Below, in pieces: positions 44,464-61,024 of a stretch of DNA of 64,000 nt. Under the pieces are notes generated by a model, which ran no database searches, had not been told where the DNA came from, and saw only the letters and a list, made by a program, of their open reading frames with translations. The first letter of the stretch is position 1, and the number at the start of each line of letters is the position of its first letter. The position numbers were made by a program, and so were the translations under genes. Origin of the DNA: Fibrobacter sp. UWR3 (GTDB taxonomy: Bacteria; Fibrobacterota; Fibrobacteria; Fibrobacterales; Fibrobacteraceae); NCBI RefSeq assembly GCF_900143055.1, contig NZ_FRCW01000007.1:1-64000 (forward strand). The letters are read 5' to 3'.

Positions 44464-44472
44464 GGTAGCCCC

Positions 44473-44793
44473 CTAGAAGATGATGGCGAGGACGATGAAG
44501 GCGACTGTACCGATGGCCGACATTACGATGGGGAATATCGGGATGCTGCTTTCCGGCTTGGCGGTATTGTCGCATTCGGGGTTGGACTGCGCAGGTGCGG
44601 CTTCTTCTTTTGCAGGGGCGGCGCTCTCGGCCCCTTCGGCCTTTGCCTCGGGTGCCTTCGCGTTGTCTTCGTCGATGAGTGCGGCATCGTTCTTGTCGGT
44701 GCGGCCGGAAGCGGGTGCGGCCACGGAATAGCATGCCAACAAGCCCACGAGCAGGGCGATGGCGGAAAGAGTCGAAAATCTAGACGTATTCAT
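44473..44793 (-). CDS. Small envelope protein with C-terminal membrane anchor
   Basis: This 106-residue product has a signal peptide (ending YSVAA), a Glu/Ala/Pro/Lys-rich disordered region, and a C-terminal hydrophobic segment (FPIVMSAIGTVAFIVLAIIF). The topology is a tethered linker. It is first in a two-gene unit with the cysteine-rich barrel protein (9-bp gap), so they probably work together. No family is recognised. Confidence 0.65.
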   Translation of the reverse strand: MNTSRFSTLSAIALLVGLLACYSVAAPASGRTDKNDAALIDEDNAKAPEAKAEGAESAAPAKEEAAPAQSNPECDNTAKPESSIPIFPIVMSAIGTVAFIVLAIIF

Positions 44794-44957: not shown

Positions 44958-44992
44958 GCGACATTATTTGTCGCAGTTGGGTGCTATATTAT
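44958..44992 (+). promoter_or_regulatory. Shared palindrome-promoter element, copy 1 (MoxR-VWA operon)
   Basis: The perfect inverted repeat GCGACA-TTATT-TGTCGC (44958-44974) lies exactly 10 nt before TATATTAT (44985-44992). The same geometry occurs at 52468-52502 (minus), 58157-58191 and 58811-58849. The palindrome replaces a normal -35 element. Confidence 0.7.
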
Positions 44993-45007
44993 GCACAGGA
45001 CGCTATT

Positions 45008-45718
45008 ATGGTTAATAAGAACAAGGACCGTTCTTTTGAACGGATTGCGTACAGGTATTGGGAAAAGCTGGTTGGCGGGATTCTTGTCCCCGGTGAGCGG
45101 GGGTATGTGCCTTCCGAAGGGGAGGTGCTTTGCGCTTATAACGAGCTGAAGGAACGGCACCTTGAATGTGATTGCATTGTACTTAGGACTGGTACACATT
45201 CGGGGGAATTCTACCAGCAAGGCGATAAAATCGCTGGTGTCAGAATTGTCCGGCAGCTTGATTCGGTCGGTACTATCGAATTCCGTTTGTCGACCGATTT
45301 CCATGTGCGCCTCGATATCGAAGGGCTTTCACCATTATCCCGGACGGAAGCGAATTGCGATCTGACGCAGACAATAAGCAACTTTGAAAATTTCATCGAC
45401 AATTTCCCGCGGTACATGGAAGGGCTCGAACGAAAGAAACTTGAATTCGAGAAAAATAAGAAGCTGGAGGAGATGGCGAAGGGCAGTATCCGGACGACCG
45501 TATCGCAGATTCTTCCGCCGCTGGGGTACCGTTGGGACCTGGTAGAACGGGGCAGGGATTACCTGCTCAAGGTTGGAGGGCATGGAACCTGGATGGAGTT
45601 TACGCTCAACCGCAGGAACTTTTCCAAGCGTCTGGCGGAGTTGCCCGATGTGCTCAGGCAGATAGAAACCCTGAGCAAGAACATGACCTTTCCGATGAAA
45701 ATAGAGATAATAAAGTAG
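45008..45718 (+). CDS. MoxR-VWA operon protein A (unknown family)
   Basis: This 236-residue soluble protein has no motif I can name. Its C-terminal 90 residues (from KKLEEMAKGSIRTTVSQILPPLGYRW to the end) match the C-terminus of the gene at 48213 (HKLAEMASQSIETIVPQIMSQSGYEW), including ...E-F/I-T-L-N-x-x-N-F. A charged helical hinge lies before this. The start at 45008 is preferred for the AGGA SD; a GTG at 44981 lies within the promoter. The MoxR gene follows after 13 bp. It may be an adaptor or substrate of the ATPase. Confidence 0.72.
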   Translation: MVNKNKDRSFERIAYRYWEKLVGGILVPGERGYVPSEGEVLCAYNELKERHLECDCIVLRTGTHSGEFYQQGDKIAGVRIVRQLDSVGTIEFRLSTDFHVRLDIEGLSPLSRTEANCDLTQTISNFENFIDNFPRYMEGLERKKLEFEKNKKLEEMAKGSIRTTVSQILPPLGYRWDLVERGRDYLLKVGGHGTWMEFTLNRRNFSKRLAELPDVLRQIETLSKNMTFPMKIEIIK

Positions 45719-45731
45719 GCAAGAGGAATAT

Positions 45732-46802
45732 ATGGCGGTAAGAATAAACGCGAATGAATTGGAAAAGCTGCTGGCGGCGACACCCGCATCGCAGAACATA
45801 ATGCTCACGGGCAAGCACGGGATTGGCAAGTCGCAGATCCTGGAGAGGTTCTTCACGTCGCGTGGCGAGCGCGTGGTGATTCTGTTCCTCGGGCAGATGA
45901 GCGATCCGGGCGATTTGATAGGCCTCCCGCGGCTCGACGAGTTGAGCGGCAAGACGCATTTTATGCCGCCGTACTGGTTCCCGACGGACGGCAAGCCCGT
46001 GGTACTTTTTTTGGACGAACTGAACCGCGCCCGCCCGGAAGTTTTGCAGACCATCATGGACCTGACGCTCAACCGGACTCTTGCGGGCCGCAAATTGCCC
46101 GAGGGCTCCCGCGTGATTAGCGCGGTGAACGACGGCGAGGAATACCAGCTCACGGATTTGGACCCGGCACTCGTGAGCCGCTTCAACATCTACGAATTCA
46201 AGCCCACCGCGCAGGAATGGCTCCTGTGGGCGGCAAAGGCGGGGCTCGATTCCCGCGTCATCGACTTCATCTCGGAAAACCCGGATATGCTCGACGGTGC
46301 CGCCTTTACCCGCGAGGACCAGGGGCTCGAAAAGTCGCCCGATAGGCGCGGGTGGGAACGCGTCTCGAAGGTGTTACAGACAAACGAAGTGACGGCGCTC
46401 TTAAAGACCGTAATTGCGGGCATCATCGGGATGCCTGCCGCATCGAAGTTCTTCGCGACTATCAACCAGAAAAAGCTCCCGAGCGCGAAGAATATTTTGC
46501 TCGGCGATTTCGCGAAGCAGAAGGCGGCAATCAAGAAATGCACCACGCCGGAACTTGCCTCCGTGAACGAGTCCGTGTTCCGCTTTATCGAGACGAAGGG
46601 CTACGACGCGAAGGACGAGGCGAAGGTGATAGAGAACTTCGCCGCATACTTTGAATTCCTTTCGGGCGAAAAGTTCCGCGAGGCGCAGGCGCATTTCGCG
46701 AACCTGTATTCCTCCTCGATGTACCCGGCCGCCATGACGCTTGTCATCATGAAGTGCCCCGAGCTGTACAAGAAAATCACGCAGTTTGTCCAGTCAATTT
46801 AA
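45732..46802 (+). CDS. MoxR-type AAA+ ATPase
   Basis: This 356-residue ATPase has Walker A GKHGIGKS (residues 27-34), Walker B VVLFLDELNRA with a following sensor (ISAVNDGEEY), and the arginine-finger region DPALVSRFNIYEF. This is a MoxR/RavA-type AAA+ protein, a chaperone-like motor acting on VWA partners. The partner VWA gene starts 7 bp after its stop. The SD is AAGAGGA. It is the core of a five-gene operon (45008-49639). Confidence 0.9.
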   Translation: MAVRINANELEKLLAATPASQNIMLTGKHGIGKSQILERFFTSRGERVVILFLGQMSDPGDLIGLPRLDELSGKTHFMPPYWFPTDGKPVVLFLDELNRARPEVLQTIMDLTLNRTLAGRKLPEGSRVISAVNDGEEYQLTDLDPALVSRFNIYEFKPTAQEWLLWAAKAGLDSRVIDFISENPDMLDGAAFTREDQGLEKSPDRRGWERVSKVLQTNEVTALLKTVIAGIIGMPAASKFFATINQKKLPSAKNILLGDFAKQKAAIKKCTTPELASVNESVFRFIETKGYDAKDEAKVIENFAAYFEFLSGEKFREAQAHFANLYSSSMYPAAMTLVIMKCPELYKKITQFVQSI

Positions 46803-46809
46803 GGTCGGC

Positions 46810-48216
46810 ATGAACGCCTTGGACAGAATAAAGAAAATCAGCGAGCGGTGGTTCCTGACGGAGCCGCTGCTGTTTGCGGTTTACTGCAGTCACGAATTCG
46901 TGGAGAACAGTGCGATTGAAGTACCGATGAGAACCGGCAACATGAAGATTGAATTCGCTCCAAAAATTCTGGACAAGATTGCAGACGATGTGCTGGTGGA
47001 ATACCTGAAAATCGAGATGTTTCGCATATTGCTCAAGCACCCCTACCAGCGACAGCCCTCTTTCGCCGCGAAGGCCCTGCTGACCATGGCGAGCAATATA
47101 ACGATTGCGGACGTGTACGATGTATCGCGCGAGGTGAAGAAGCAGATGAGCGGTACGGAGCAGAAACTCCCCGGCGGGCTGTGTTTCGAGGAATACTACA
47201 ATCTGCTCCTGCAAAATACGACCCCGAATTCGGGAAAGTCTGGCGGCGAGCCGCAGAAAACGGATAGTGGCCCCGGTCAGGGCGACAAGTCTGGGCAGGG
47301 TGGCGATGACTCCGGCAACGGCAATCAGGAAGGCGGCGAATCCGGACAACAGGGTGGTGACGGGAGCGGCGCAGATTCTGGCGACGCTTCCGGTGACTCG
47401 CGCGGCAATGGCAGCGGTTCGAAAGGCAATTCGCGCGGGAGTTCTGGCCGAGACGGCGGCGGCTCCGGTGGCAAGGGTTCGGGCGCTTCGGGTAATTCCG
47501 GCGCCGGCAATTCGCAGGAACATCGCGACTCGCAAATCTCGGAACTCTGGGAAGATAACGAGGAGGCCTGCTGCAACATAAACGAGTTTATCGAAGTCGC
47601 CACCGCGAGCAACAACTGGGGCACCGTCGCGGGCAAGTTGCAGGGGCTCATCAAGGCAAGCCTGAAAGTTGACATGGACTACCGCAAGATGCTCAGTTTG
47701 TTCAAAACCTCGGTCATCTCGAGCAGGCGCCGCCTCACGCGCATGCGGCCCAACCGCCGCTCCGGTTTCGACGCGATGGGTAGCCGCTACGAACTTTCGA
47801 CGAACTTGCTTATCGCTGTTGACGTGAGCGGGTCCGTTACCGACAAGAGCCTGCAATTTTTCTTCTCGGTCATTAACCGCCTTTTCAAATACGGAGTCGA
47901 GAAACTGGACGTATTGCAGTTCGACGCCCAAATTCAGGGCGAAATCGAGCCGCTCAAGAAGGCGCGCAAGACCGTGAAGATTATGGGCCGCGGCGGTACG
48001 AGTTTCCAGCCCGCTGCCGACTATTACTGCGAACACCCCGAATACGACGGGCTTATCTACTTTACCGACGGTTACGCCCCGCCTCCTGTATTCAACACCA
48101 AGCGCCCCATCGATGTGCTGTGGGTCATTTGCAGCAGGCAGTGCTACGCGGAGAATGCCGAGTGGATCCGCAAGATGAAACGCAATCGCGTCACCTTTAT
48201 TCCGAGGAGTGAATGA
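46810..48216 (+). CDS. VWA-domain partner of the MoxR ATPase (DUF2201-like)
   Basis: This 468-residue protein has an N-terminal helical domain (1-140) similar to the DUF2201 metallopeptidase-like region. Where that family has HExxH, this one reads IEMFRILLKHPYQR, so zinc binding is probably lost. A Gly/Ser/Asp-rich linker (about 145-240) follows, then a C-terminal VWA domain (about 330-468) with MIDAS motif DVSGS (338-342), and later FDAQI and GGTSF. The start at 46810 has AAGG upstream; a TTG at 46786 overlaps the MoxR gene and is less likely. Its stop overlaps the next gene by 4 bp. Confidence 0.85.
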   Translation: MNALDRIKKISERWFLTEPLLFAVYCSHEFVENSAIEVPMRTGNMKIEFAPKILDKIADDVLVEYLKIEMFRILLKHPYQRQPSFAAKALLTMASNITIADVYDVSREVKKQMSGTEQKLPGGLCFEEYYNLLLQNTTPNSGKSGGEPQKTDSGPGQGDKSGQGGDDSGNGNQEGGESGQQGGDGSGADSGDASGDSRGNGSGSKGNSRGSSGRDGGGSGGKGSGASGNSGAGNSQEHRDSQISELWEDNEEACCNINEFIEVATASNNWGTVAGKLQGLIKASLKVDMDYRKMLSLFKTSVISSRRRLTRMRPNRRSGFDAMGSRYELSTNLLIAVDVSGSVTDKSLQFFFSVINRLFKYGVEKLDVLQFDAQIQGEIEPLKKARKTVKIMGRGGTSFQPAADYYCEHPEYDGLIYFTDGYAPPPVFNTKRPIDVLWVICSRQCYAENAEWIRKMKRNRVTFIPRSE

Positions 48217-49034
48217 TGAAAAAAAAGAAACTTCTAGAGACCTCGTGCCATTTCTTGATGGCTGAGTTCTGGCGCGGGCTCACCCTGGGGCTCGGCAGGT
48301 CGCGCGAAGACGGGAAGGACCCCTACTGCAGGGATTACAAGATGGCGGCCTTCAAAATGACCGTCTTTGCGAATGGTGTCAAGGGTTATTTTAACGATGT
48401 GACCAGGCGCCTCAAGGACTCGTGTGTTGGAATTGAGTTCAGGCCTAAGGCATGGAGGGACCGCTCGAAAATGTGCATTGCACTTTCCGTCAATTTTGTG
48501 ACGGGAATAGGGCATGTGTTTTTCCAAAGCAAGATCGGCCTGCTCAAGGGCGATCACGTGCACCTGATGTCGGAAGAAATCCGGGACGTGGATATCCTTG
48601 CCTCGCTGGAAGACATACGCGCATTTCTTGAGAAGTATCCGGAATACGAGAAGGCGGCCGAGGCGATTGCAGAGGAGAAGAGGACCGAGGAGATAAAGCA
48701 GCATAAGCTTGCCGAGATGGCGTCTCAGAGTATCGAGACGATTGTGCCGCAGATTATGTCGCAGTCGGGTTACGAGTGGATTCTGGAAAGTGTGTACAAG
48801 GGGTGGGGCCGCGGTGGAATTCCGGAGAGCTACATTCTGCGCGTCAAGACGAAAAAGCACAAGATGATAGAAATCACCCTGAACAAGAACAATTTCGCGG
48901 AGAAGATTCCCGAAATCCTGAATGTGGTCAAGCAGATCGAGCAACTGCTGGAACAGACACCCTTCGCCGTAAACATCGTCAATTACGGCCCGGGTACCCG
49001 CTGGATCAAGGGCACGGAAAACGTGAAGGAGTAA
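48213..49034 (+). CDS. MoxR-VWA operon protein A' (paralogue of 45008)
   Basis: This 273-residue soluble protein overlaps the VWA gene by 4 bp. The C-terminal part from about residue 165 is clearly related to the product of 45008 (LAEMASQSIETIVPQI...GYEWIL...IEITLNKNNF). The N-terminal part is not obviously shared. The middle has a charged helix (EKAAEAIAEEKRTEEIK). Having paralogues at both sides of a MoxR-VWA pair suggests a matched two-subunit partner. No family is recognised. Confidence 0.72.
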   Translation: MMKKKKLLETSCHFLMAEFWRGLTLGLGRSREDGKDPYCRDYKMAAFKMTVFANGVKGYFNDVTRRLKDSCVGIEFRPKAWRDRSKMCIALSVNFVTGIGHVFFQSKIGLLKGDHVHLMSEEIRDVDILASLEDIRAFLEKYPEYEKAAEAIAEEKRTEEIKQHKLAEMASQSIETIVPQIMSQSGYEWILESVYKGWGRGGIPESYILRVKTKKHKMIEITLNKNNFAEKIPEILNVVKQIEQLLEQTPFAVNIVNYGPGTRWIKGTENVKE

Positions 49035-49036
49035 GC

Positions 49037-49639
49037 ATGAAAAAAGCAGAACAAACAAAAAGTATTTTCATCCTAGAGGTTTACGAGTTCGCACCCTGCG
49101 AAAGGCGTGCTTACCAGGTCTACAAAGAAAGATGGAGCCGCTGTACCGGTCCCTGCGCCCTCACCTGGAAAAGAGGAGTCGGGTATTTCGAGACATTGCG
49201 TGATGCCGAAAAGTGCATCAAGAAAATTGTTCGTCGCAAGCGCGATGACGTCTATGGGTTTGTCATCAAGGAAATGCCGCGGGATTGCGTTGTTAACGTG
49301 TATATGCCCCTTTCGATTCGGCGCTATCTAAAAGACGGTTCACTATGGTGCACGGGCAGCGACAAGACTGCAAAATTCAAGGAAGGCGACCTCGTCGAGA
49401 TAGCCTATGACGACTATGTTGAACTTGGGATTGTTCAAGGCTTTGACAATGCTGACTGCTCCTATACCGTGGTCACCTATAACCTGGACGAAAACGCTCC
49501 CTCCGAATTTTGCGGCCGTTTTGGCAATACGGCTTATGTACTCCCGCCCTCGTTCCCTGTCCAGAAAAAGTACGCCGCGGCACTCCGTCGCGGGCTCAAG
49601 CAGGCGGAGAAGGAATCTATAGACGATCTTCCGTTTTAG
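49037..49639 (+). CDS. MoxR-VWA operon protein B (unknown family)
   Basis: This 200-residue cytoplasmic protein starts 2 bp after the previous stop with AAGGAG as SD. It is rich in Arg, Lys and Tyr, with a few cysteines in no clear metal pattern. The middle segment FKEGDLVEIAYDDYVELGIVQGF looks like an SH3-like or KOW-like beta-barrel. I recognise no family. Last gene of the operon; convergent with hipA (23 bp between stops). Confidence 0.65.
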   Translation: MKKAEQTKSIFILEVYEFAPCERRAYQVYKERWSRCTGPCALTWKRGVGYFETLRDAEKCIKKIVRRKRDDVYGFVIKEMPRDCVVNVYMPLSIRRYLKDGSLWCTGSDKTAKFKEGDLVEIAYDDYVELGIVQGFDNADCSYTVVTYNLDENAPSEFCGRFGNTAYVLPPSFPVQKKYAAALRRGLKQAEKESIDDLPF

Positions 49640-49662
49640 GGAATGGTATTTGCCGCGATTGT

Positions 49663-50976
49663 CTAGCGAAGCATGAATTCGTGAACGCCTGCGATTGCGC
49701 GGATGACGCTTGCGGGGACGCCGTTCTTTTTGGCGAGTTTCGGCCAGCGTTTTACCGCGCTTTCGACTTCGGCGAGAATTTTCTTGTAGCGGCCCTGCCT
49801 TAGTCCTGCGAACTTCGCGACCGCATGGAAATCGTCCAGCGTAAATTTTTCGCGCTTGCCGTTGAACGTCATCTGGTGCGTGCCGGTCCATGTGCCCTGC
49901 GGGTTGTAGGCGTACGTCATGTCGAAAGCGGGCGCGAGGCTCCACACTCCGCGCTTGTCCATCAGGAATCCGATGTTTTTCGCGTGGTCGTCCTGGTTGC
50001 GTGCGCAGATGTTGAATGCCGCCCTGCGGAACATTTCTTCGAGAGCGTCGTAGCCGAGGCCGAGCCGCCTGACAATATCGAGCGCCTGCTCGTAGCTGTA
50101 TGCGCCCGGCATGTTGAAGTCGTAGTGGGCGAGCGCGCAGAGCGACTGGTAGTGCAGTTTCTTGCCGCCCGCGAGGCGGTCGAAACGCCGCGTCATAAAA
50201 TGCCTGTGACCCGCGCATTCGTAAAGCCTGCATTCCGTCATGTCGATGCCCGCGAGTTTAGCCATTTGCGAGTACGTGTACTCGATGGCTCCGTACCCGA
50301 ACAGGTCGGCGCCTTCCTTGTCGCTGTTATTTTGTACGTCGTCAAGTTTTAGGAGCCAGTAACCGAACCGCGGGTCTGTCGCCACCTGCCCCGAGCGCAT
50401 TTCGCCGGTGGCTTCGTCGTATGCCACGAGAATCTTTGCACGCGCGCCGCCCGCCGACGTGCCCACCCGAAGGATTTCCTCGAAGGCCTTGCCGTTCTTC
50501 TTGGAGAGTGGCCTGCCCTTGATGTTCCTTACCGAAAAGCGCTTGCGCTGGTTCAGCACCTCGGCGGCAAATTTTCGCAGGTTTTCTACGTCCAGCGAGT
50601 CGTCGCCTGCGGAGTCGGGCCCCTGCAACGGCAGGAACTCCAGCGCGCCCATGCCGCGGTTTCCCGTGTAGCACAGGCGTTCGAGCGCGGTGAAGCTTTC
50701 GGGCGTGCGGCCCTGTTGCAGGAGCCACGCATCGATTACCCTGTTGCCGAACTTGTCGGGAAGGCTATCTGCAAAAAGCCCGGGCAGCCCGTGGAACGTT
50801 CCGGAAAGCTGCGGGAAGGTGTAGATGCGGTTGGAAACGGGCATCGCGATGGGCGCAGGCTCGACGCCCGCGCCGATTAATTCAGGTGCGTACTCGAAAC
50901 GCGCGACCGATTCGCCCTCGAGCATGGAGAGCGCCCCGATGGTCGTACCCCAGAGTTTTACCTCTACCGCGATCAT
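49663..50976 (-). CDS. hipA: HipA-family Ser/Thr kinase toxin
   Basis: This 437-residue protein has the HipA N-terminal domain (LWGTTIGALSMLEGESVARFEYAPE) and kinase-like C-terminal domain: VGTSAGGARAKILVA in the ATP-binding loop region, FNICARNQDDHAKNIGFL with the catalytic D of the N-x-D-D-H-xKN motif, and SLAPAFDMTY with the metal-binding D. HipA phosphorylates a translation factor (GltX in E. coli) to induce dormancy. hipB lies 9 bp upstream. All key residues are present, so it appears functional. Confidence 0.92.
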   Translation of the reverse strand: MIAVEVKLWGTTIGALSMLEGESVARFEYAPELIGAGVEPAPIAMPVSNRIYTFPQLSGTFHGLPGLFADSLPDKFGNRVIDAWLLQQGRTPESFTALERLCYTGNRGMGALEFLPLQGPDSAGDDSLDVENLRKFAAEVLNQRKRFSVRNIKGRPLSKKNGKAFEEILRVGTSAGGARAKILVAYDEATGEMRSGQVATDPRFGYWLLKLDDVQNNSDKEGADLFGYGAIEYTYSQMAKLAGIDMTECRLYECAGHRHFMTRRFDRLAGGKKLHYQSLCALAHYDFNMPGAYSYEQALDIVRRLGLGYDALEEMFRRAAFNICARNQDDHAKNIGFLMDKRGVWSLAPAFDMTYAYNPQGTWTGTHQMTFNGKREKFTLDDFHAVAKFAGLRQGRYKKILAEVESAVKRWPKLAKKNGVPASVIRAIAGVHEFMLR

Positions 50977-50985
50977 GGCGAGCCC

Positions 50986-51477
50986 CTACTTGTCTTCGCC
51001 CCAGACCCAGGGCGTTTTGCGTTTAGTTTTTGCGGCAGATGTTTTGCCTTTCGTGCTAGACGCTACGCCGCCTGCAACATAATCCGCGGAATTTTCGGCG
51101 ACTGAATTCGCGCTGGCGCTTGTTGCGCCGGTATTGCGCGGGGCGTTTGTGCCCAGCGAGTTATTTGCGCTGCGCGGGGTGCGGACGCGCTTGCGCGCCT
51201 TGACCTCGCCCATCCGCAGGATTTGCATGGGCGACGGCGAGTCGTCGGGGAATATGGCGAGGAACGCTTCGAGCATGCCGCATACCCGCAGGACCTTGAT
51301 GAGGTTCAGCACCTGCACGGAATCGCCCCGCTCGATGTGCTCGACGGTGCCCTTGCTCACGCCCGCCTGTTCGGCGAGCTGGGCCTGCGTCCAGTTGCGG
51401 CGGATACGGAATGCCGCCATGCGCCTGCCGAGCAGGGCAAGCGCGGATTTGTCGGTCTGTGCGGAATATGTAGCCAT
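50986..51477 (-). CDS. hipB: HipB-like antitoxin with XRE helix-turn-helix
   Basis: This 163-residue protein has an XRE-type HTH (residues 16-75; WTQAQLAEQAGVSKGTVEHIERGD), followed by a long Ala/Ser/Asn/Lys-rich tail that is probably disordered. It neutralises HipA and represses the operon. The length exceeds E. coli HipB (88 aa) because of the tail. SD GGGAGGG lies upstream. Operator-like repeats lie at 51550-51597. Confidence 0.88.
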   Translation of the reverse strand: MATYSAQTDKSALALLGRRMAAFRIRRNWTQAQLAEQAGVSKGTVEHIERGDSVQVLNLIKVLRVCGMLEAFLAIFPDDSPSPMQILRMGEVKARKRVRTPRSANNSLGTNAPRNTGATSASANSVAENSADYVAGGVASSTKGKTSAAKTKRKTPWVWGEDK

Positions 51478-51549
51478 GAACCCTCCCGGTACCTGTATTG
51501 AATATAGTAAAAAGTCCCGGAAAAGTCAAATATTATTTCATAAAATTTA

Positions 51550-51597
51550 GTGAATTGTAGCGTGAATTGCGTGATAATTCACAAGATAATGTGAATT
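51550..51597. promoter_or_regulatory. hipBA operator array
   Basis: GTGAATT occurs at 51550-51556, 51562-51568 and 51591-51597, and its inverted form AATTCAC at 51576-51582. The pair 51562/51582 forms an inverted repeat GTGAATT-N7-AATTCAC. The hipB promoter TATATTCA lies at 51499-51506 on the minus strand with TTGACT 23 nt upstream, so the array lies at the upstream edge of the promoter. Confidence 0.6.
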
Positions 51598-51624
51598 AAA
51601 TTTTGCCAATATTCAAGCCAAAAT

Positions 51625-52440
51625 CTAAATCACCCTGTTGCCATATTTCTTCTCGAATTCGACGAGCAGCTTTTGCAACTTCGGGAAAAGGGCCTTGAGG
51701 ATGTTCACTTCGTGCTTGTACATCGCCTGCGAGACACCGAACAGGGGTTCCGCGATGCTCCCCGCAATGCACGCGAGCGTATCGCTGTCGCCGCCGAGCG
51801 AGATTGCGTTCCGGATGGCGTCCTCGAAATCCGTAGCCTCCAGCACGCAGCGGATTGCCTGCGGAACGGTCCCCTGGCATTGCTCCGCCCCGTAATAATC
51901 CCATCCGTATATGGGTCGTAGTTCGTCGAGGGTAAAGTCAAGACCATAGCCGAACTCGCTTTCCACGAATTTCTTGATGTCGGCTTTGTCGGCGCCTTTG
52001 CGGGCTAGCAGGATTGATGCGGCGGTCGCTTGTGCTCCCTTGATTCCTTCGGGATGGTTGTGTGAACATTCCGCAGATACCTTCGCCCATTCGAGAACCT
52101 CGTCCATGGTATCGAACGCCCAGCCGACAGGCCCCACCCGCATTGCGGAACCGTTTCCGCAGCTGTTGTAGGGTTGCGATTTTTTGCCCCTGCGCGCGTT
52201 CGCGACGAACTGCAAGAACCCGGAGCCGTACTCGCCCATGGGGTTGTCGTATTCGGTAGCGAAATCGCAGTAGTGCCGCCACGCCTCGCCACCGTGCAAA
52301 AGCCAGTTTGCCGTTGCGAAGGTCAGCACGCTGTCGTCGGTCGGCTCGATGCCCTCGCCCCAGAAATCGAAATCCTTGGTCTTGATGTTGTCGAATTCGT
52401 AAATCGACCCGATGGTATCGCCGATAATCGCACCTATCAT
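51625..52440 (-). CDS. ADP-ribosylglycohydrolase family protein
   Basis: This 271-residue DraG-like hydrolase removes ADP-ribose from target molecules. The metal-binding motifs are intact: GDTIGSIYEF (N-terminal), PTDDSVLT, NGSAMRVGPVG, and GGDSDTLACIAGSIAE near the C-terminus. GGAGG lies before the ATG. The promoter carries the shared palindrome element (52468-52502). It lies between hipBA and the DUF2779-mcrBC defence genes, so it may counteract ADP-ribosylating toxins; this is inference. Confidence 0.92.
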   Translation of the reverse strand: MIGAIIGDTIGSIYEFDNIKTKDFDFWGEGIEPTDDSVLTFATANWLLHGGEAWRHYCDFATEYDNPMGEYGSGFLQFVANARRGKKSQPYNSCGNGSAMRVGPVGWAFDTMDEVLEWAKVSAECSHNHPEGIKGAQATAASILLARKGADKADIKKFVESEFGYGLDFTLDELRPIYGWDYYGAEQCQGTVPQAIRCVLEATDFEDAIRNAISLGGDSDTLACIAGSIAEPLFGVSQAMYKHEVNILKALFPKLQKLLVEFEKKYGNRVI

Positions 52441-52467
52441 TTTTCCTCCATTTTGGCCTTTTTTCGG

Positions 52468-52502
52468 TAAATATAGCCCCGCAGCGCGACAAATGTAGCC
52501 GC
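52468..52502 (-). promoter_or_regulatory. Shared palindrome-promoter element, copy 2 (ADP-ribosylglycohydrolase)
   Basis: On the minus strand GCGGCT-ACATT-TGTCGC (52502-52486) lies exactly 10 nt before TATATTTA (52475-52468). The right half-site TGTCGC is identical to the other three copies; the left half is less conserved. Confidence 0.6.
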
Positions 52503-52572
52503 ATGAAAAAAATGTTTTCTCGGGCCGTTTTTTTTGAAAATTTCAGTATATATTCTTTTACGAGGATACAAA

Positions 52573-54768
52573 ATGCCCGAGATGCCAGAAGTTCTTTTTA
52601 CCAAATCCGCGTTCAAGATTGCAACCCACTGCCCGATGCAGGCTTATTATTACCGTAATTCCAAGGGCAAAAATTTGGAATACGAGAACCAGTCCGCTAT
52701 GGACGAGTTCCTGAAATCCATGGCCGAGGGCGGTTTTCAGGTTGGTGAACTGGCAAAAATCTATGGCGAGGTTCCACCAGAGAATGACTTGGAAGGTTGC
52801 TATGGCTATGACGAGCCCCTTAAGCGCACTCGTGAACTCTTTGAACAGGAAAACGTGAACATCGCAGAAGCGGCGTTCCGTTTCGGTGATTGCTTTGTCC
52901 GTGCCGATGTGGTGAAAAAGCAGGGCAATTTTATTGACCTGATAGAGGTGAAGGCTAAAAGTTGGGACCCGAAAGATGCTTTCGTGAATACGCCGACTAG
53001 GGGCGCCAATGCGGGAAAGCGTGTCGTGAATTCAGGCATTCGTGACTACCTTTACGATGTTGCGTTCCAGAAGTGGGTTGTCGAGAACGCTCTGAAGAAT
53101 GACTACCCAGGCAAGACATTTACAGTGCGCGCTTACTTGATGATGGCGGACAAGAGCAAGGTGAATTCCATCCCGCGATTGAACAGCCTTTTCCGTGTCA
53201 AGAAGAGCGTGGGGAGCGACGGCGAAAAACGTGCCTATGCCGAAGTTGCGCCTGAGGCTATTGAGGTGTTGAAGAATCCGCATGAGCATGTTCTGACTCC
53301 GTTCTATGTTGATGATGAATGCAAACAGATTATCGAAGGCAAGACGGCCGAACAGGCGGACGTGCTAGGCATGCCGTTTGTCTCGTTCATTGAAGAGAAA
53401 TCAAAGTGGTTCGTGAACAACGAGAAACGTTATTGCCTTCTAGGCAGCAAGTGTTTTAAGTGCCCCTTCCAGCTTTCGGAAGAAGGCAAGGCCAAGGGCT
53501 TGAAAAGCGGTTACGAGGAATGTTGGCGCAAAGTAGCCGGCTTCAAGGACGAAGATTTCGAAAAACCGTTGCTTAAGGAATTGAGCGGGACCGGTATAAA
53601 GAGAGATGACTGGATTCGTAGCGGGATTTATTTTATAAAGGATATTACGGAAGCGGTGTATCCCCGCAAAAATGACGGAACGGGGGCAGGCTGGACTATC
53701 AATGAACGCAAGTGGGTCCAGATTGACAGAACGAATAGCGGTTGCAAGGACCCCGTTATCCTGAAGGACGAACTTCGCGCCGAGATGGCAACGTGGAAGT
53801 TTCCGCTCCACATGATCGATTTCGAGACGACGAACTCCGCATTGCCCTACTTTGAAAAACAACGTCCTTATGAACAGGTTGCTTTCCAGTTCTCGCACCA
53901 CGTTATTTATGAAAATGGTCGCATAGAGCATAAGGGACAGTTCCTGGAAACTCGCCCGGGATATTTCCCGAACTTTAAATTTGTTCGTGAACTCAAAGAA
54001 CAATTAGGTGCAAAAGGCTCGGTATTCCGCTATGCCACCCACGAAAACACCATCTTGAATGCGATTCGCGTGCAACTCATGGAATCAAAGGTAAAAGACA
54101 AGGATGAACTGATCGAATTTATCGAAAGCATTACGCATAGGGGCAAGAAGAAAAAGGACGGTCATTACGAACACGAAGGCGAACGCGACATGATTGACCT
54201 CTGCGAAGTCGTCAAGCGGTTCTACTGGCACCCGATTATGAAGGGCTCCAATTCCATCAAGCAGGTACTGCCCGCCGTACTTAACAGCGGAATGTACTTG
54301 CAGGAAAAATACGGCAAGCCCATTTACGGAAGTGAAATCAAGAGCTGCAATTACACGCCAGAAGAGCCATTCGCCTTGATTACCAGGGACGAGGCCGGTG
54401 GCGTGAAGAACCCGTACAAGATTCTGCCGCAGCTTAAGGAAATTGAGGACAAGCTCATTGACGAGATTGCGGGCCAGGGAATGGATAAGGATGAACTTGC
54501 CCAATATGTGCAGAATACAAGCGATGCGGAGATGGATTCCGATGGTGATACGCAAATCAACAACGGCGGCTTGCCACTAGTGCTGTTCCGCAGCTTCCAG
54601 GCGCTTGATCCGAAGGTAGACTGGGAAAAGGAACTGACCGCAGCCAATCTAACACCCGACGCGCTGAAGTACAAGGCAATCCGCGAAGGCTTGCTCAAGT
54701 ACTGCGAACTCGACACCATGGCGATGGTGCTCGTGTGGGAATATTTTAACAATGCATGCAAGGAGTAA
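52573..54768 (+). CDS. Cas4/RecB-like Fe-S nuclease fused to a DEDD exonuclease (DUF2779)
   Basis: This 731-residue protein has an N-terminal PD-(D/E)XK nuclease with RADVV (D about 112) and LIEVKAK (E125, K127). C20 plus C-x5-C-x2-C (residues about 288-297, CLLGSKCFKC) are placed as in Cas4/AddB, suggesting a [4Fe-4S] cluster. The C-terminal DUF2779 part begins HMIDFETTNS (D416, E418), a DEDD/DnaQ-like 3'-5' exonuclease motif I, with later YATHENTIL and CELDTMAMV as further motifs. The start at 52573 has GAGGA upstream. mcrB starts 6 bp downstream, so it is probably part of the same defence operon. Confidence 0.85.
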   Translation: MPEMPEVLFTKSAFKIATHCPMQAYYYRNSKGKNLEYENQSAMDEFLKSMAEGGFQVGELAKIYGEVPPENDLEGCYGYDEPLKRTRELFEQENVNIAEAAFRFGDCFVRADVVKKQGNFIDLIEVKAKSWDPKDAFVNTPTRGANAGKRVVNSGIRDYLYDVAFQKWVVENALKNDYPGKTFTVRAYLMMADKSKVNSIPRLNSLFRVKKSVGSDGEKRAYAEVAPEAIEVLKNPHEHVLTPFYVDDECKQIIEGKTAEQADVLGMPFVSFIEEKSKWFVNNEKRYCLLGSKCFKCPFQLSEEGKAKGLKSGYEECWRKVAGFKDEDFEKPLLKELSGTGIKRDDWIRSGIYFIKDITEAVYPRKNDGTGAGWTINERKWVQIDRTNSGCKDPVILKDELRAEMATWKFPLHMIDFETTNSALPYFEKQRPYEQVAFQFSHHVIYENGRIEHKGQFLETRPGYFPNFKFVRELKEQLGAKGSVFRYATHENTILNAIRVQLMESKVKDKDELIEFIESITHRGKKKKDGHYEHEGERDMIDLCEVVKRFYWHPIMKGSNSIKQVLPAVLNSGMYLQEKYGKPIYGSEIKSCNYTPEEPFALITRDEAGGVKNPYKILPQLKEIEDKLIDEIAGQGMDKDELAQYVQNTSDAEMDSDGDTQINNGGLPLVLFRSFQALDPKVDWEKELTAANLTPDALKYKAIREGLLKYCELDTMAMVLVWEYFNNACKE

Positions 54769-54774
54769 GGATAG

Positions 54775-56646
54775 ATGACAAATGAAGAATTTAAAAAAAT
54801 TGTAGAAGACTGGATTAAGGAAAAAAATCAAAATAAAAATGATGATGAAAAATGGGAAAAAAGACCTTCCGTAAAAGTGGATGATCGTATTCTTCTGAAT
54901 AAGGGTTGGATTAATAAAAAATCGAATTGGGTCAATACGATTGCCTATACCTTATTAAATTGTGATGGAAAACCGAGGAATGGTACTTCAATAAGGATTT
55001 CTCTTGATTATAGAAAAGATCTAAATAAACTAAGTAAATCTAATAAATTGCAAGTTTTGAATAATTTACAAGAGAAACTTAAAATTGTGTTTTCAGAAAA
55101 ATATGAGATTTGTAATTCTGGTGGAACGGAAGCGCCTACCCAAAGTGGAATCTATCTTATTTTTGGTCAACCCGAAGAGGGGAAAACATGGGACAAGGAT
55201 TCCCTGAATGAAGCACTTGAAAAAATGCATTCGTTTAGCGAAAATAACATAAATGAATATCGAAGCATTGTTGAGCAATGCGAAAATGATTTTTTAACAA
55301 AAATTGATGGAGATGACCAAATGCCTGAAAAAGAATCCAACATAGAAGACGTAACTAGGCTCCTACTTGACAACTACAACATCATTCTTCATGGTGCGCC
55401 GGGAACAGGGAAAACTTACCTAGCGCAACAGATTGCCAAAAAAATGATATTTGGGGATTCTTTTGATACGAAAAGAGATTTGACAAAGGAAGAGCAAGAG
55501 CAGTTTGATGAGCAATATGTACTTGTCCAGTTTCATCAATCCTATGACTATACGGACTTTGTTGAGGGATTGCGTCCAAAAAATGACGTTGATGGAAAAA
55601 TTGGCTTTGCGCGAAAAGATGGCGTGTTTAAGGAATTTTGTTCAAAGGCGATTGGTGCCCATTTTTCAAATTTTGAGTCTGCCTATAAAAATTTTGTAGA
55701 TGTATTGAACAAGAATAAAGAAATGAAACTGCAGACCATAAAACAAAAGAAAACATTTAGCGTTCGCGTGAATAGCAATGGCAACTTGTATGCGACTCCT
55801 AATACGAAAGCTGCTACAGATATGCCCATAACAAAGGAATTGCTAAAAACATACATAGAAACGGGTGAGATAAAAGATTGGAAACCTTATGTTACTGCAA
55901 TCGGAGAGTATTTAAAAGAAAATTATTTTTTGGGTGATTTGTCAGTTGATGATTCTCAAAAAAACAAAAAATACATCATTGTTATAGACGAAATTAATCG
56001 TGGTGAAATGTCAAAAATTTTTGGTGAATTGTTTTTCTCTATTGATCCAGGATATCGAGGAATAAAAGGAAAAATTAGAACTCAATATCAGAATTTGATT
56101 GAAGAAAAGAATGTGTTCACAGATGGCTTTTATGTCCCCGAAAATGTATATATCATTGGCACGATGAATGATATTGACCGCAGTGTCGAAAGCATGGACT
56201 TCGCTATGCGTCGTAGATTCGCGTTTAAGGAAATTACTGCCAAAGATACCCAGAAGTCGATGTTTGGGGATGGAACCGAATGGAAAAATGGTAATGATGA
56301 GAAAATAGATGTTTCATCCTGCCTTGGCGACATAAAGCGTCGAATGAACGATCTGAACAATGCCATTCTGAATAAAGAGCTTAATTTAGGTCAGGCATAT
56401 CAGATTGGTGGAGCTTATTTCTTAAAATTTGCCAATTACTGTAAAATAGACGAAAATAAAAAGGCTTATAAATCTCAAGATGAAGCGTACGGATCTCTTT
56501 GGGAAAACCATCTTGAATGCGTGCTGCGTGAATATCTCCGCGGTATGGATCCCGATAATGATAAGTTGAGAACTCTCGCACGTGCATATGGTTTTTCAGA
56601 AGAAGAAACACTCAAGATGTATCCGAAAAATGAAGAGAAAGCATAA
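54775..56646 (+). CDS. mcrB: McrB-type AAA+ restriction motor
   Basis: This 623-residue protein has a 180-residue N-terminal domain of unknown type, likely for target recognition, and a McrB AAA+ motor: Walker A GAPGTGKT (207-214), QFHQSYDYTDFVEGLRP, Walker B IIVIDEINRGEMSKIFGEL, the McrB-specific GTMNDIDRS (about 461-469) and AMRRRF. McrBC is a GTP-driven restriction system that cuts modified DNA. The gene is clearly more AT-rich than the chromosome (many Lys AAA and Asn AAT codons), indicating transfer. Its stop overlaps mcrC by 1 bp. Confidence 0.93.
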   Translation: MTNEEFKKIVEDWIKEKNQNKNDDEKWEKRPSVKVDDRILLNKGWINKKSNWVNTIAYTLLNCDGKPRNGTSIRISLDYRKDLNKLSKSNKLQVLNNLQEKLKIVFSEKYEICNSGGTEAPTQSGIYLIFGQPEEGKTWDKDSLNEALEKMHSFSENNINEYRSIVEQCENDFLTKIDGDDQMPEKESNIEDVTRLLLDNYNIILHGAPGTGKTYLAQQIAKKMIFGDSFDTKRDLTKEEQEQFDEQYVLVQFHQSYDYTDFVEGLRPKNDVDGKIGFARKDGVFKEFCSKAIGAHFSNFESAYKNFVDVLNKNKEMKLQTIKQKKTFSVRVNSNGNLYATPNTKAATDMPITKELLKTYIETGEIKDWKPYVTAIGEYLKENYFLGDLSVDDSQKNKKYIIVIDEINRGEMSKIFGELFFSIDPGYRGIKGKIRTQYQNLIEEKNVFTDGFYVPENVYIIGTMNDIDRSVESMDFAMRRRFAFKEITAKDTQKSMFGDGTEWKNGNDEKIDVSSCLGDIKRRMNDLNNAILNKELNLGQAYQIGGAYFLKFANYCKIDENKKAYKSQDEAYGSLWENHLECVLREYLRGMDPDNDKLRTLARAYGFSEEETLKMYPKNEEKA

Positions 56647-58148
56647 TGCGGATTTCTCTTGCAGACAATCAGTACAAGGCAAAGTCTTGGAACGAGGTTT
56701 CCAATGGCGTTTCTTGGAATAAAGATTTTAAAGAGTCACTAGAAGAAATAAGCGGGAAATCCCTTCAAGATTTACGGAAGAACAAGAAATTCCTCTTTTT
56801 CCCATCCGATGAGGCTAAGGCAGATTTAGACAACCGTAATAACTTTGTCTATAAACTTTCGTGGAAACAAAACGAACCTCCGTCCTTTCAGACGGGGAAT
56901 GTCATGGGATTCTTGGGCGTTGACGATGATTTGCAAATGCAAATTATATCCCGATTTGATCAGCCAGATTCGAAGGATGGTACACAATGTCATAAAAATT
57001 TCTTTTTACATTATATGCTTCAGAGGGTGTGTAATGTTGCCTTCGCCCCGCAAACCAATTCTGCCGAAGATGATTTTTTTGAATTCCTATATTACTTGTT
57101 TCCTAGTTATTTAAGAAAAGCGTGTGCTCAGGGTATTTTTCGTGCGTATGTGACTCGGGAATATAACGACGCCAATGTTCGTGGACCAATTGATGTTTCG
57201 CGTCATATTCGTTATAATATTCCTTTCAATGGGAAAATTGCCTACCACACCCGCGAATACACGACCGATAACAAGGTGACTCAACTAATTCGGCACACTA
57301 TTGAATATATCCGTAGTTTGAGCGTGGGTAGTTCTATTCTTGATGCAGATATAGATACGCGCAATGATGTGAATGCGATTGTCGCAGCAACCACAACCTA
57401 CTCTCGAAATGCGAGAATGCAGGTAATTGCTAAAAATTTGCATCCCGTAACACATCCTTATTATACTGAATATGAGGAACTGCGGAAAATTTGCATAGCC
57501 ATATTGCAACATAAGAAATTGAGTTATGGCGATAGCGATAAACCAATTGCGGGAATTCTGTTTGATGGGGCAAGCCTTTGGGAAGAATATCTGGCGAAGG
57601 TGTTTGAAGATAATGGAGTGAATTTAATTCATTCTAATAATAGAACTAGGGATGACGGAATTCCGTTGCTGAAAGAAGGCCGAAAGAATCATTATCCAGA
57701 TTTTTATCGTAAAAAGTCTGATGATAAGGAGAGCATTGTTTTGGATGCCAAGTACAAGAAGTTGTGCATTGGTAAAGAAGATGGTGATATTGATAAAGAA
57801 GATGGCGAAATAGATGACAAAGATAATTCTATAGATGGCAAGCCCAAAATCTATCTACGGGGTCGCGATGTAATGCAGATGCTTGCTTATATGCATGCAC
57901 TGGAAGCGAAAAAAGCTGTTTTGATTTCGCCATATGTGTTTAATGCTGAAAACAAAGAAAAATATGATATTTTAGAAAGGTCTTGGTCTACTGCGGGATA
58001 TGGCAGTAGTATTTCTGTGATTGGCGTTCCTATTCCAGCTTATGATGAAAAAACTAGATGGGAAGAATTTAAAGAAATGATGCATCAAATCGAAAAGCAA
58101 TTTATTATAAAGATTCAAGACATATTGAAAAAAACTGGAAATACATAA
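56646..58148 (+). CDS. mcrC: McrC-type PD-(D/E)XK nuclease subunit
   Basis: This 500-residue partner of McrB has the McrC N-terminal domain (VMGFLGVDDDLQMQIISRFD), LFDGASLWEEYLAKVF, and the nuclease motif HYPDF (D about 350)...IVLDAKYKKL (D367, K369). An acidic insert GDIDKEDGEIDDKD lies after the active site. The start overlaps the mcrB stop (TAATG). AT-rich like mcrB. Together they form a complete McrBC system. Confidence 0.93.
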   Translation: MRISLADNQYKAKSWNEVSNGVSWNKDFKESLEEISGKSLQDLRKNKKFLFFPSDEAKADLDNRNNFVYKLSWKQNEPPSFQTGNVMGFLGVDDDLQMQIISRFDQPDSKDGTQCHKNFFLHYMLQRVCNVAFAPQTNSAEDDFFEFLYYLFPSYLRKACAQGIFRAYVTREYNDANVRGPIDVSRHIRYNIPFNGKIAYHTREYTTDNKVTQLIRHTIEYIRSLSVGSSILDADIDTRNDVNAIVAATTTYSRNARMQVIAKNLHPVTHPYYTEYEELRKICIAILQHKKLSYGDSDKPIAGILFDGASLWEEYLAKVFEDNGVNLIHSNNRTRDDGIPLLKEGRKNHYPDFYRKKSDDKESIVLDAKYKKLCIGKEDGDIDKEDGEIDDKDNSIDGKPKIYLRGRDVMQMLAYMHALEAKKAVLISPYVFNAENKEKYDILERSWSTAGYGSSISVIGVPIPAYDEKTRWEEFKEMMHQIEKQFIIKIQDILKKTGNT

Positions 58149-58156
58149 TATTTTTC

Positions 58157-58191
58157 ACGTCATCATTTGTCGCATACAAAATCTATATTGT
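58157..58191 (+). promoter_or_regulatory. Shared palindrome-promoter element, copy 3 (zinc-ribbon gene)
   Basis: ACGTCA-TCATT-TGTCGC (58157-58173) lies exactly 10 nt before TATATTGT (58184-58191). TCATCAnTTGTCGCAT is shared with copy 4 at 58811. Confidence 0.65.
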
Positions 58192-58223
58192 AGTCATACA
58201 AACGCAAGCAAAGGAGTTGTACT

Positions 58224-58769
58224 ATGTCTAGCGATAGAATTTGGTTCTTTTCTGAAGATGTCAATGTCTCGTGTTGCGAATGCGGGAAGGAGACTACTCT
58301 CAATCCGGATTTCGACGAGGTTGCGGGCGACTTGCGCCTGAATTTTGTCAAGGTTCGCTCCACGATTCCAGACAGCGGTACCTGCCCGCAGTGCGGCAAC
58401 GAGATGGAAGTGGTTGTCACGTACTGGCGGCGCGAATTCTACTGCAAGAACAAGGACGGCAAGGAAGTCTGCCGGTATTTCAATCTTTGGCTCAAGGACG
58501 ATTCGTCTGGGTGTTCCGTCGAGGGGCTGGAATCTCTGTACGAGACCTCTGCCTTGGACCATCCCGACGACCTCGCACTTGATAGCGATAGCGCTCGGGA
58601 ACTTGTCGACCTGCTCTACAAAACGACCCGCGACGAGGCGTTGCTCGCTGTCGGAGAATCGCTGAAGAACGGGAACTCCGTGGAATCCGTGATTCCCGAA
58701 CTCAAGCGGATTATCGACTCGCACGATGACGTGCTGAAAGATAAATACCTGTCGCAGTACCCGCTGTAA
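58224..58769 (+). CDS. Zinc-ribbon-like protein, unknown function
   Basis: This 181-residue cytoplasmic protein has CCECGKE (residues about 17-23) and CPQCGNE (about 54-60), two CxxC pairs consistent with one zinc ribbon. The rest is acidic and mostly helical. I recognise no family. AAAGGAG lies upstream of the ATG. Its promoter shares the palindrome element with the next gene, the MoxR-VWA operon and the ADP-ribosylglycohydrolase. Confidence 0.7.
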   Translation: MSSDRIWFFSEDVNVSCCECGKETTLNPDFDEVAGDLRLNFVKVRSTIPDSGTCPQCGNEMEVVVTYWRREFYCKNKDGKEVCRYFNLWLKDDSSGCSVEGLESLYETSALDHPDDLALDSDSARELVDLLYKTTRDEALLAVGESLKNGNSVESVIPELKRIIDSHDDVLKDKYLSQYPL

Positions 58770-58810
58770 ATAGCGCTAGATTAAGAGAAATCTTTAGCTG
58801 ACCATATAAT

Positions 58811-58849
58811 CCATGCGTCATCAGTTGTCGCATGGTGTTTGTATATTTA
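58811..58849 (+). promoter_or_regulatory. Shared palindrome-promoter element, copy 4 (DnaB-like ATPase)
   Basis: The longest copy: a 25-bp palindrome (58811-58835) with outer arms CCATGCG / CGCATGG and inner CA / TG. The right half TGTCGC ends exactly 10 nt before TATATTTA (58842-58849). ATG 58871 follows with GGAGG. Confidence 0.72.
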
Positions 58850-58870
58850 TCCACAAAAACGGAGGTTTTT

Positions 58871-59761
58871 ATGAGCGAAGAGAAGATGATGCCTATTGCG
58901 GATTTTGTGGAAGAGATGGTCGCGAAGGCGGACTGCACGAAGCGCCAGGATTGCCAGGGCTTTACTGGCTTTCGGGACATTGACAACTTGACAAACGGGA
59001 TGAAGAAGGGGGGCTTGATCCTGCTGGCGGCGCGCCCCGGCGTTGGGAAATCTACGCTCGCGTCCAATATTGCGGGGAACATGGCGATTGATTGCCATAG
59101 GCGTGTCGCGTTCTTCTGCATGGAAATGGGCAATGAGCTTTTTGCGCAGAGCATAGTTTGTTCTCGTGCGCATGTGAAGGGCTCGGCCTTGCGGAACAAC
59201 AAGATGACCTCCGCCGAGAAGGACCGGATCGCAGCAATCGCCCGAATTGTCAAGGACGCTCCGCTGTTTATCGACGAGCGCCGCGACTGGAATGTTGCGG
59301 AACTTGTAGATACGGTGCGCGAGATGAACAAGGAAAAGAAACTCGATCTCGTCATTGTCGACTATCTGCAGCTGGTGATATCGGACAAGGGAGAATCTCG
59401 CGAAGAAAAACTGGAGAATGTCGCTCGTGAGCTGAAGGTCCTTGCCAACGAGCTCCGCATCCCCATCATCGTCACCGCGATGCTCAGCCGCCACAACGAG
59501 AAGGGTGCCGGCCACCTGAAGCCGGAAGAACTGCGCGAGATCGGCCTTGCCGTGCAGCAGGCGGATTCTGTCTGGATTCTGGACCGGCGCTATATGCGGA
59601 CGCACCGGGACGAAGACAAACGCCTGGCCGAACTCTATGTGGATAAAAAGATAATCCTTCTAAAATTTTTTTCCGAGTATTTGGAATTCTGCGACATGAA
59701 CGAGGAAGAAAAGTCGGGATATTTCTATAGAGAGCCGGAAGACAAGAGCGACATGGGCTAA
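58871..59761 (+). CDS. DnaB-type (superfamily 4) ATPase domain without N-terminal DnaB domain
   Basis: This 296-residue protein has the RecA-like core of DnaB helicases: a leader GFTGFRDIDNLTNGMKKGGLILLAARPGVGKS (Walker A about 53-60), FFCMEMGNE, LVIVDYLQLV (Walker B about 160-169), RELKVLANELRIPIIVTAMLSR, and a final IILLKFFSE in place of the DnaB end. The N-terminal DnaB domain (about 170 aa) is missing, so it is not a replicative helicase. It may be a regulatory or defence ATPase. GGAGG lies before the ATG. The next gene starts 1 bp after its stop. Confidence 0.88.
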   Translation: MSEEKMMPIADFVEEMVAKADCTKRQDCQGFTGFRDIDNLTNGMKKGGLILLAARPGVGKSTLASNIAGNMAIDCHRRVAFFCMEMGNELFAQSIVCSRAHVKGSALRNNKMTSAEKDRIAAIARIVKDAPLFIDERRDWNVAELVDTVREMNKEKKLDLVIVDYLQLVISDKGESREEKLENVARELKVLANELRIPIIVTAMLSRHNEKGAGHLKPEELREIGLAVQQADSVWILDRRYMRTHRDEDKRLAELYVDKKIILLKFFSEYLEFCDMNEEEKSGYFYREPEDKSDMG

Positions 59762-59762
59762 A

Positions 59763-60881
59763 ATGCACACGCTTCCGCAAATCAGGGGTTGCATCGAGTC
59801 CGTTCGCAAGGAACTGGTCGTTTTCGAAAGCAAGCGTGCGATGCTGCGCAAGATTCATCTAGAACTAGTTTCATTTTGCTGGTTTGACGGAATGGAGATT
59901 GATCATGATGCGGTGCCGACGGACTGTCCGAACCTTGACAACATTGATAACGAAATCAATGCAACAATAATTGCGATCGACCTATATAGCCGAACAGTTG
60001 CCGCTATAGAAAGGTTGCGCGACTTAATTTCCGATGATTACGGAAAGATGTTTGCTGACACGGAAGATGAATTTGTATTCTTTGCAAAAAAAGAAAATGA
60101 CCCTGATGAAAAGAACCGGGAGATACTGAATGGATTCCGGAAAATCAGAAATTTTTTCCCGCCAGTCGGCGGTGAGTGTGCCTTGTGGAAACGCTTTTGT
60201 GCCAGTGATAAAGAGATGCTGCACGATCTATTGTCGAAAGCGGATGAAGCGATTGCTCAAGGCAAAGGTCAGAAACTCCGGTGCATCCTGACCGAAATAT
60301 TTAGCAGGCAGGCATCTGTGCTAAAAAGTCAAATCGTGGAACACCTATGTTTCCTGAAAACTGAACGTAACCGATTGATCCGCGAGTTGCCGAATATGAG
60401 CGGACGGGAATCTGCTGAAAAATGCGGCAAACCCTATTGGGTGGAGGTGGGCGGTTCTGAAAATTTGTTTGTAAAAAACAACGCTTTCCCCGTACCGATC
60501 CTTTGTGCGAAGGATTTTGTAGCTCAAGAAATAACTGAAATCGACGAAGACATATTTCATTACAAGCGACTTCTCGACGATACGAGCGAATCTCCCTCAA
60601 TGAGAATTTTCGGATTCAGTTCTGAGGAAGAATTTGAAGGCATCGTGAAGCAATGGGATGTCTCCAACAAGCATTGCGACGAAATAGAGTGGGCAAGGTG
60701 GATTATATCGAAAATAGACGATTACATCCATTATGGTTTTTCCAACGAATTGCTCCCGCAGTGGAAAGAGGTCCTTGACAAGGCGGTTGACATCCTTGAA
60801 GAAAAGGACGAAAAGGCTCAGGATCTTCAAAAGGGTAAACGCCTGCTCGAATTGCCCGTTTTGGAACTGAGAAAAGTTTGA
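59763..60881 (+). CDS. Large helical protein, partner of the DnaB-like ATPase (unknown)
   Basis: This 372-residue cytoplasmic protein is mainly helical, with many Glu, Lys, Arg and Leu residues; likely coiled-coil stretches lie near 10-40, 95-130 and 185-215. I recognise no domain. The start lies 1 bp after the ATPase stop, so the two are coupled and probably form one complex. Base composition is lower in GC than the ATPase gene. Function unknown. Confidence 0.65.
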   Translation: MHTLPQIRGCIESVRKELVVFESKRAMLRKIHLELVSFCWFDGMEIDHDAVPTDCPNLDNIDNEINATIIAIDLYSRTVAAIERLRDLISDDYGKMFADTEDEFVFFAKKENDPDEKNREILNGFRKIRNFFPPVGGECALWKRFCASDKEMLHDLLSKADEAIAQGKGQKLRCILTEIFSRQASVLKSQIVEHLCFLKTERNRLIRELPNMSGRESAEKCGKPYWVEVGGSENLFVKNNAFPVPILCAKDFVAQEITEIDEDIFHYKRLLDDTSESPSMRIFGFSSEEEFEGIVKQWDVSNKHCDEIEWARWIISKIDDYIHYGFSNELLPQWKEVLDKAVDILEEKDEKAQDLQKGKRLLELPVLELRKV

Positions 60882-60960
60882 TTTTTTAAACAAATAACAC
60901 ATTTCCCCAAAAAAATTTGACAAACGCTTTACATTTTCTCCTTGTTTTTCGATAATGATT

Positions 60961-60984
60961 ATGCGTATATTAGCATATATGCAT
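60961..60984. promoter_or_regulatory. Palindromic operator over the promoter of the gene at 61025
   Basis: Arms ATGCGTATAT and ATATATGCAT (9 of 10 pairing) surround TAGC. The promoter box TATATTAG (60966-60973) lies inside the left arm, so a bound dimer would block transcription. It differs from the TGTCGC element. Confidence 0.6.
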
Positions 60985-61024
60985 AAATAGGCGATAACAC
61001 AATGCCATCGACAGGAGGTCTTTT

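Follow-up and report, generated by a model that had tools for sequence, protein, structure and literature searches.

A candidate ternary MoxR-VWA system with a multicopy partner family in Fibrobacter and other anaerobic bacteria

Most known pairs of a MoxR-type AAA+ ATPase and a VWA protein either serve one enzyme as chaperones or form the centre of conflict systems found in multicellular bacteria. In NorQ-NorD, RavA-ViaA and CbbQ-CbbO, a MoxR motor and a VWA adaptor remodel a specific target, which is a single defined enzyme, and a multicopy, diversifying partner is absent. In the MoxR-vWA ternary conflict systems, a conserved MoxR and vWA are combined with a variable third component, and four types have been distinguished: VMAP, iSTAND, FtsH and beta-propeller (Kaur et al., 2020; PMC7159879). 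Jumbo phages, too, encode MoxR together with a vWA that has a peptidase domain; a function in virion assembly has been proposed for this pair (PMC7824862). Here, an operon from Fibrobacter sp. UWR3 is described, located in a window (the whole stretch of DNA that was analysed) of 64,000 nucleotides on contig NZ_FRCW01000007.1. Its MoxR-VWA subfamily is frequent among anaerobes of the rumen and the mouth, from which few descriptions of such systems exist.

The operon shares with all four types (PMC7159879) the conserved MoxR and vWA and the variable third component, and with the VMAP type also the position of the third gene, which precedes MoxR and vWA, as does the gene termed A here. However, this third component belongs to a new family (the A family) instead of being a VMAP, iSTAND, FtsH or propeller protein; the VWA protein is a DUF2201-type one that carries a pseudo-peptidase domain N-terminally and lacks a C-terminal effector, and thus differs from the described vWA architectures; and the partner is often multicopy, with Fibrobacter, Treponema and Bacteroidales as hosts. 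By Pfam and NCBIfam, the operon has neither a VMAP-C third component nor vWA C-terminal effectors. The iSTAND type has an inactive STAND NTPase as its third component, whereas the predicted structure of A shows no P-loop NTPase-like architecture, and the vWA of that type is CoxE-like instead of DUF2201. No gene with two FtsH-type AAA+ domains is found in the operon; a double-AAA ATPase (cluster c8) occurs near some loci as an inconstant neighbour. The beta-propeller type is distinguished by its P-loop (GxxxTAKS, versus GKHGIGKS here), by the bpMoxR profile (17.1 bits versus a cut-off of 27) and by a C-terminal propeller on its vWA, which is missing here. What the operon does contain is a MoxR-type AAA+ protein with intact Walker A and B motifs adjoining a vWA with a MIDAS. 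The literature search, with supplements outside its scope, found no paper on DUF2201 proteins with MoxR and A-type partners; as far as searched, the system is undescribed, ternary by layout and covered by the definition of none of the four types.

The jumbo-phage pair (PMC7824862; PHROGs 1297/1314) likewise joins MoxR to a vWA with an N-terminal metallopeptidase domain, and the window proteins match these PHROGs at 6.5e-54 and 1.5e-41. In contrast to the phage pair, the peptidase site is degenerate here, phage MoxR is only about 24% identical, and the A family has not been reported with that pair. A scan of viral contigs with MoxR gave no close viral homologues. Phage and plasmid MoxR matches stay below 60% identity, the best phage ones at 24%. 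E. coli K-12 has the WGR genes yehF and yehI ahead of its MoxR (yehL) and VWA (yehP) genes (yehI-yehL-yehM-yehP-yehQ), which recalls the fusion of some Bacteroidota A proteins to WGR domains. However, in a search of seven proteins, YehL and YehP match the MoxR and VWA profiles at 0.008 and 0.034 only, YehP is CoxE-type and not DUF2201, and the A profile finds no match in the yeh region: the yeh proteins are distant analogues only.

The operon comprises five co-directional ORFs in the order A - MoxR - VWA - A' - B, as initially annotated, separated by few-base gaps or joined by 4-base overlaps (Table 1). The VWA ORF reaches back to a TTG at 46786, and the ATG at 46810 was preferred because most relatives start near that ATG.

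Table 1. Features of the operon and of the surrounding island (window coordinates).
Feature	Position	Strand	Basis or remark
A	45008..45718	+	ORF; 236 aa; upstream member of new family
MoxR-type AAA+ ATPase, putative motor	45732..46802	+	356 aa; AAA_5 match
VWA protein (DUF2201 VWA domain and DUF2201_N pseudo-metallopeptidase)	46810..48216	+	Pfam, motif census
A'	48213..49034	+	273 aa; downstream paralogue of A
B, uncharacterised island protein	49037..49639 (start approximate)	+	preferred start ATG 49037, behind AGGAG
Variable island holding the operon	44981..61024	.	flank comparison, Pfam
HipBA	49663-51477		in island
ADP-ribosylglycohydrolase	51625-52440		in island
DUF2779 protein	52534-54768		in island
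McrB-like/McrC pair	54775-58148		in island
NERD-UvrD type helicase gene	40918-42690		left island edge

The MoxR protein is assigned by Pfam to AAA_5 (1.9e-10), and its Walker A (GKHGIGKS) and Walker B (LFLDELNR) motifs as well as R150 are invariant across 17 relatives. The VWA protein matches DUF2201 (6.8e-12) and DUF2201_N (5.4e-11), and sequence relatives in the PDB were not found. The initial annotation had noted that the DUF2201-like N-terminal domain has lost its HExxH, and this is borne out far beyond the window, where the site reads IEMFR: xExxR is found in 82/82 aligned VWAs of the subfamily, which lacks the zinc site that defines DUF2201_N metallopeptidases. HExxH is retained in 5/5 outgroup MoxR-VWA pairs, and the histidine downstream of the site is still present in the subfamily. 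The MIDAS is kept in the window (DVSGS/T/D); its aspartates and threonine are intact across the subfamily, and the DxSxS motif varies in some members. The vWA ends at the DUF2201 domain, and an effector domain was recognised nowhere in the system.

The MoxR-VWA pair is indeed bracketed by paralogues, since A' is recovered with A as the query (8e-12, residues 113-231). The initial annotation had confined this similarity to a C-terminal domain of about 90 residues; the paralogy stands, and the likeness extends over the whole predicted topology. In the AlphaFold models (pLDDT 88.5 for A and 80.4 for A'), both proteins have the identical element order H-H-E-E-E-E-E-H-E-E-E-H over their full length: N-terminal helices and five strands are followed by a long helix, three strands and a helix, giving a two-lobed alpha/beta architecture. 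By these models, A and A' form one family over their full length and not in the C-terminal part alone. A, A' and B have zero Pfam, NCBIfam or PADLOC matches, and a known housekeeping domain, which had been considered at the outset, is not found in A or A' (zero Pfam, NCBIfam or PDB family matches); the partner set that could not be named thus remains without a name in every library searched. For A, a PDB search gave no sequence match and no convincing fold match, and a toxin fold or family was not recognised. Matches to dsRBD, CapZ-like and HPF-like proteins were too weak for an assignment (for the dsRBD and CapZ-like folds, best Foldseek E 0.02, VIA Z of at most 8). A match to an endornavirus polyprotein at 4.1e-4, the sole viral-library match below 0.001, has a TM-score of 0.19 and was taken as chance. 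Within Fibrobacter, upstream A and downstream A' fall into separate tree groups (support 91/97 and 81/92), which indicates that both positions are old.

With A as the only query, 201 genomes yielded 16 close homologues (window included), from Fibrobacter and one related genus, and 15 of them stand immediately before MoxR-VWA. Nine of the loci also contain A'. Presence within Fibrobacter is patchy (about 17 genomes of the genus). The five genes do form a tight operon in the window and the order A-MoxR-VWA is kept in relatives, but the five-gene unit originally proposed is not conserved as a whole: the core of the system is A-MoxR-VWA, A' is optional, and B is co-transcribed with the operon here and lies outside the conserved system. 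B was rejected as a member because it occurs in G010, G026, G052 and G060, all without MoxR-VWA; in other Fibrobacter genomes it is mostly found away from the pair. The one exception among the 16 homologues is L068, in which A sits directly before recCBD without MoxR-VWA. Since this A is nested in the tree with those of L070 and L071, both of which still have A-MoxR-VWA near recC, L068 has apparently lost the pair. Altogether, recCBD adjoins A-MoxR-VWA (or A alone, in L068) in five Fibrobacter genomes (L067-L071), and the same distance of 64 bases to recC is measured from A in L068 and from VWA in L071.

Across GTDB species genomes, tblastn confirmed 344 stretches of the MoxR subfamily, and the 80 best belong to Fibrobacter, Treponema and other spirochaetes, Bacteroidales, Elusimicrobia and one Ruminococcus MAG; relatives of the arrangement span at least four bacterial phyla. 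With an iterated A profile, A-family genes were detected at 35/72 loci outside the close Fibrobacter set, and in Treponema, Bacteroidales and Elusimicrobia the pair is accompanied by tandem A-family genes, of which often two to four precede MoxR and one to three follow VWA. In 16 whole genomes, 44/51 A-family matches lie within 15 kb of a subfamily MoxR, a figure that is biased upward and partly circular, since MoxR-centred loci had served to build the A4 profile. Among 24 genomes with an A-less MoxR-VWA locus, A is found elsewhere in 17 and is absent in 7. In two Bacteroidota (G222, G223), A matches number 9 to 17 and are dispersed in the genome; the proteins that carry them measure about 250-830 aa, many contain two A units, and at least 15 have a WGR domain at the N terminus (Pfam, to 1.8e-19).

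The A family diverges rapidly: compared across one set of 15 loci, A has a mean dN of 0.398, VWA of 0.182 and MoxR of 0.073, so that A exceeds MoxR about fivefold. Pairwise dN/dS for A stays below 1 and gives no sign of positive selection. A constant C-terminal combined with a hypervariable N-terminal part of A is not supported within Fibrobacter, where both halves average 50% identity. Between the window and L073, MoxR is 94% identical and A 47%, with synonymous sites saturated in A, a pattern that probably also reflects an exchange of A alleles.

The variability of the site is evident from its flanks: the left flank (37985-44793) recurs in G029, G033, G054 and G059, followed there by other cargo, and the right flank at 61025 is common to the window and L066. 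The NERD-UvrD helicase at the left edge resembles RT-associated NERD helicases (PADLOC, 3e-36); its gene is missing from the left flank of G059. WYL regulators occur at 11/17 core loci, which are partly non-independent as some share an insertion site, and at 12/72 distant loci, as compared to 0/16 control regions and 0/12 other MoxR-VWA loci (there are only three WYL genes in the whole genome); they are also frequent in islands with orphan A genes. None of the five operon proteins matches PADLOC up to E = 1. A general PADLOC enrichment near the loci was rejected (73 families versus 135 in the control, 98 proteins), WYL alone standing out.

The preferred reading, held with about even confidence, is that the operon represents an undescribed MoxR-VWA system in which A-family proteins are dedicated clients or adaptors, most likely with a role in conflict. 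A is likely a client or adaptor of MoxR-VWA, and a conflict role against phages or other invaders is plausible. Linkage, domain content, the motif loss, the full-length likeness of A and A', the rapid divergence and the island setting are observed facts, from which physical interaction, direction of action, target and defence are inferred. The MoxR ring would act as an ATP-driven motor, and the VWA protein, with its peptidase-like domain devoid of the zinc site, as an adaptor that could dock clients via its MIDAS. The A proteins would be the variable third component, supplied as paralogues beside the motor, as unlinked genes or as WGR fusions; the motor might remodel or release them once they meet their target, most likely during conflict with phages or mobile DNA. 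The client and conflict reading draws on the position of A upstream of MoxR, the tandem A genes and their linkage to MoxR, as well as on the dN contrast, the WYL counts, the island with McrBC and HipBA, and the WGR fusions. Several observations argue against it: the partly circular linkage figure, the seven genomes with an A-less locus and no A at all, dN/dS below 1, the equal divergence of the two halves of A, the lack of PADLOC enrichment, the A-less loci at a fixed position next to Lon and often Asp-tRNA ligase genes (see below), orphan A genes and the lack of a recognised effector. A bolder and tentative version would see a fifth class of MoxR-vWA ternary immune systems in host-associated anaerobes from at least four phyla: one conserved motor-adaptor pair would serve diversified A-family sensors that in some genomes are dispersed, a dozen or so in number, and WGR-fused, by analogy to a single chaperone with many receptors.

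A physiological role is possible, albeit doubtful: MoxR-VWA might be a maturation chaperone that loads or assembles A complexes or inserts a cofactor, which is how NorQ-NorD and CbbQ-CbbO act on their targets. MoxR-VWA pairs of known function belong to this kind (PMC9976466; PMC13036017), and the purifying selection on A and the fixed, A-less chromosomal position in some Bacteroidales are consistent with it, but a cofactor enzyme is not linked, and multicopy, fast-diverging A genes and patchy presence are unlike the maturation factor of one enzyme. The WGR domains, the trio or lone A beside recCBD and the WGR genes next to E. coli's own MoxR-VWA pair bring to mind a stress or DNA-damage module, in which WGR-bearing or recCBD-linked A acts at DNA ends and is removed by MoxR-VWA. 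This is unlikely, as most A proteins lack WGR, the recCBD loci may descend from one ancestral insertion, and no E. coli protein is matched by the A profile. Very improbable is a toxin-antitoxin-like set, with A and A' as toxin and neutraliser, or as phage-inhibited guards, kept apart by the motor: the position-stable paralogue pairs in Fibrobacter and the HipBA neighbour would fit, but A' is missing from many loci with A, orphan A persists alone, and A resembles no known toxin. If A proteins are clients of MoxR-VWA, the system would be a small, testable example of a single remodelling motor that serves many clients, and would account for a large set of hypothetical genes unnamed in any library.

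Several other arrangements were observed. The orphan A-family genes (L084-L091) are about 29% identical to A, without adjoining MoxR-VWA, and lie in islands of a common kind, which a P-type ATPase gene often borders on one side; those of L090 and L091 are shorter and more remote. At six loci (L140, L146, L149, L152, L159, L160), a subfamily MoxR-VWA pair with a degenerate MIDAS motif occupies a largely fixed Bacteroidales position without A nearby, most of them preceded by Lon and two membrane-protein genes and four followed by Asp-tRNA ligase; these may be a housekeeping branch. A different MoxR-VWA pair (L093, L095-L097, L101, L102) has a conserved position in Fibrobacter, with constant neighbours (clusters c14-c20, c26) and HExxH kept where checked. 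At L179, a MAG named Ruminococcus flavefaciens contains a copy close to a Bacteroidales one, possibly through misbinning or transfer. A YgjP-like HExxH peptidase is encoded as a separate gene in six distant loci, between MoxR and VWA in L114 (4273-4779) and L182 (6405-6818). In Treponema (L125, L127, L128, L130, L131), a stand-alone gene for the FlhA cytosolic (FHIPEP) domain directly follows VWA and adjoins A-family or WYL genes.
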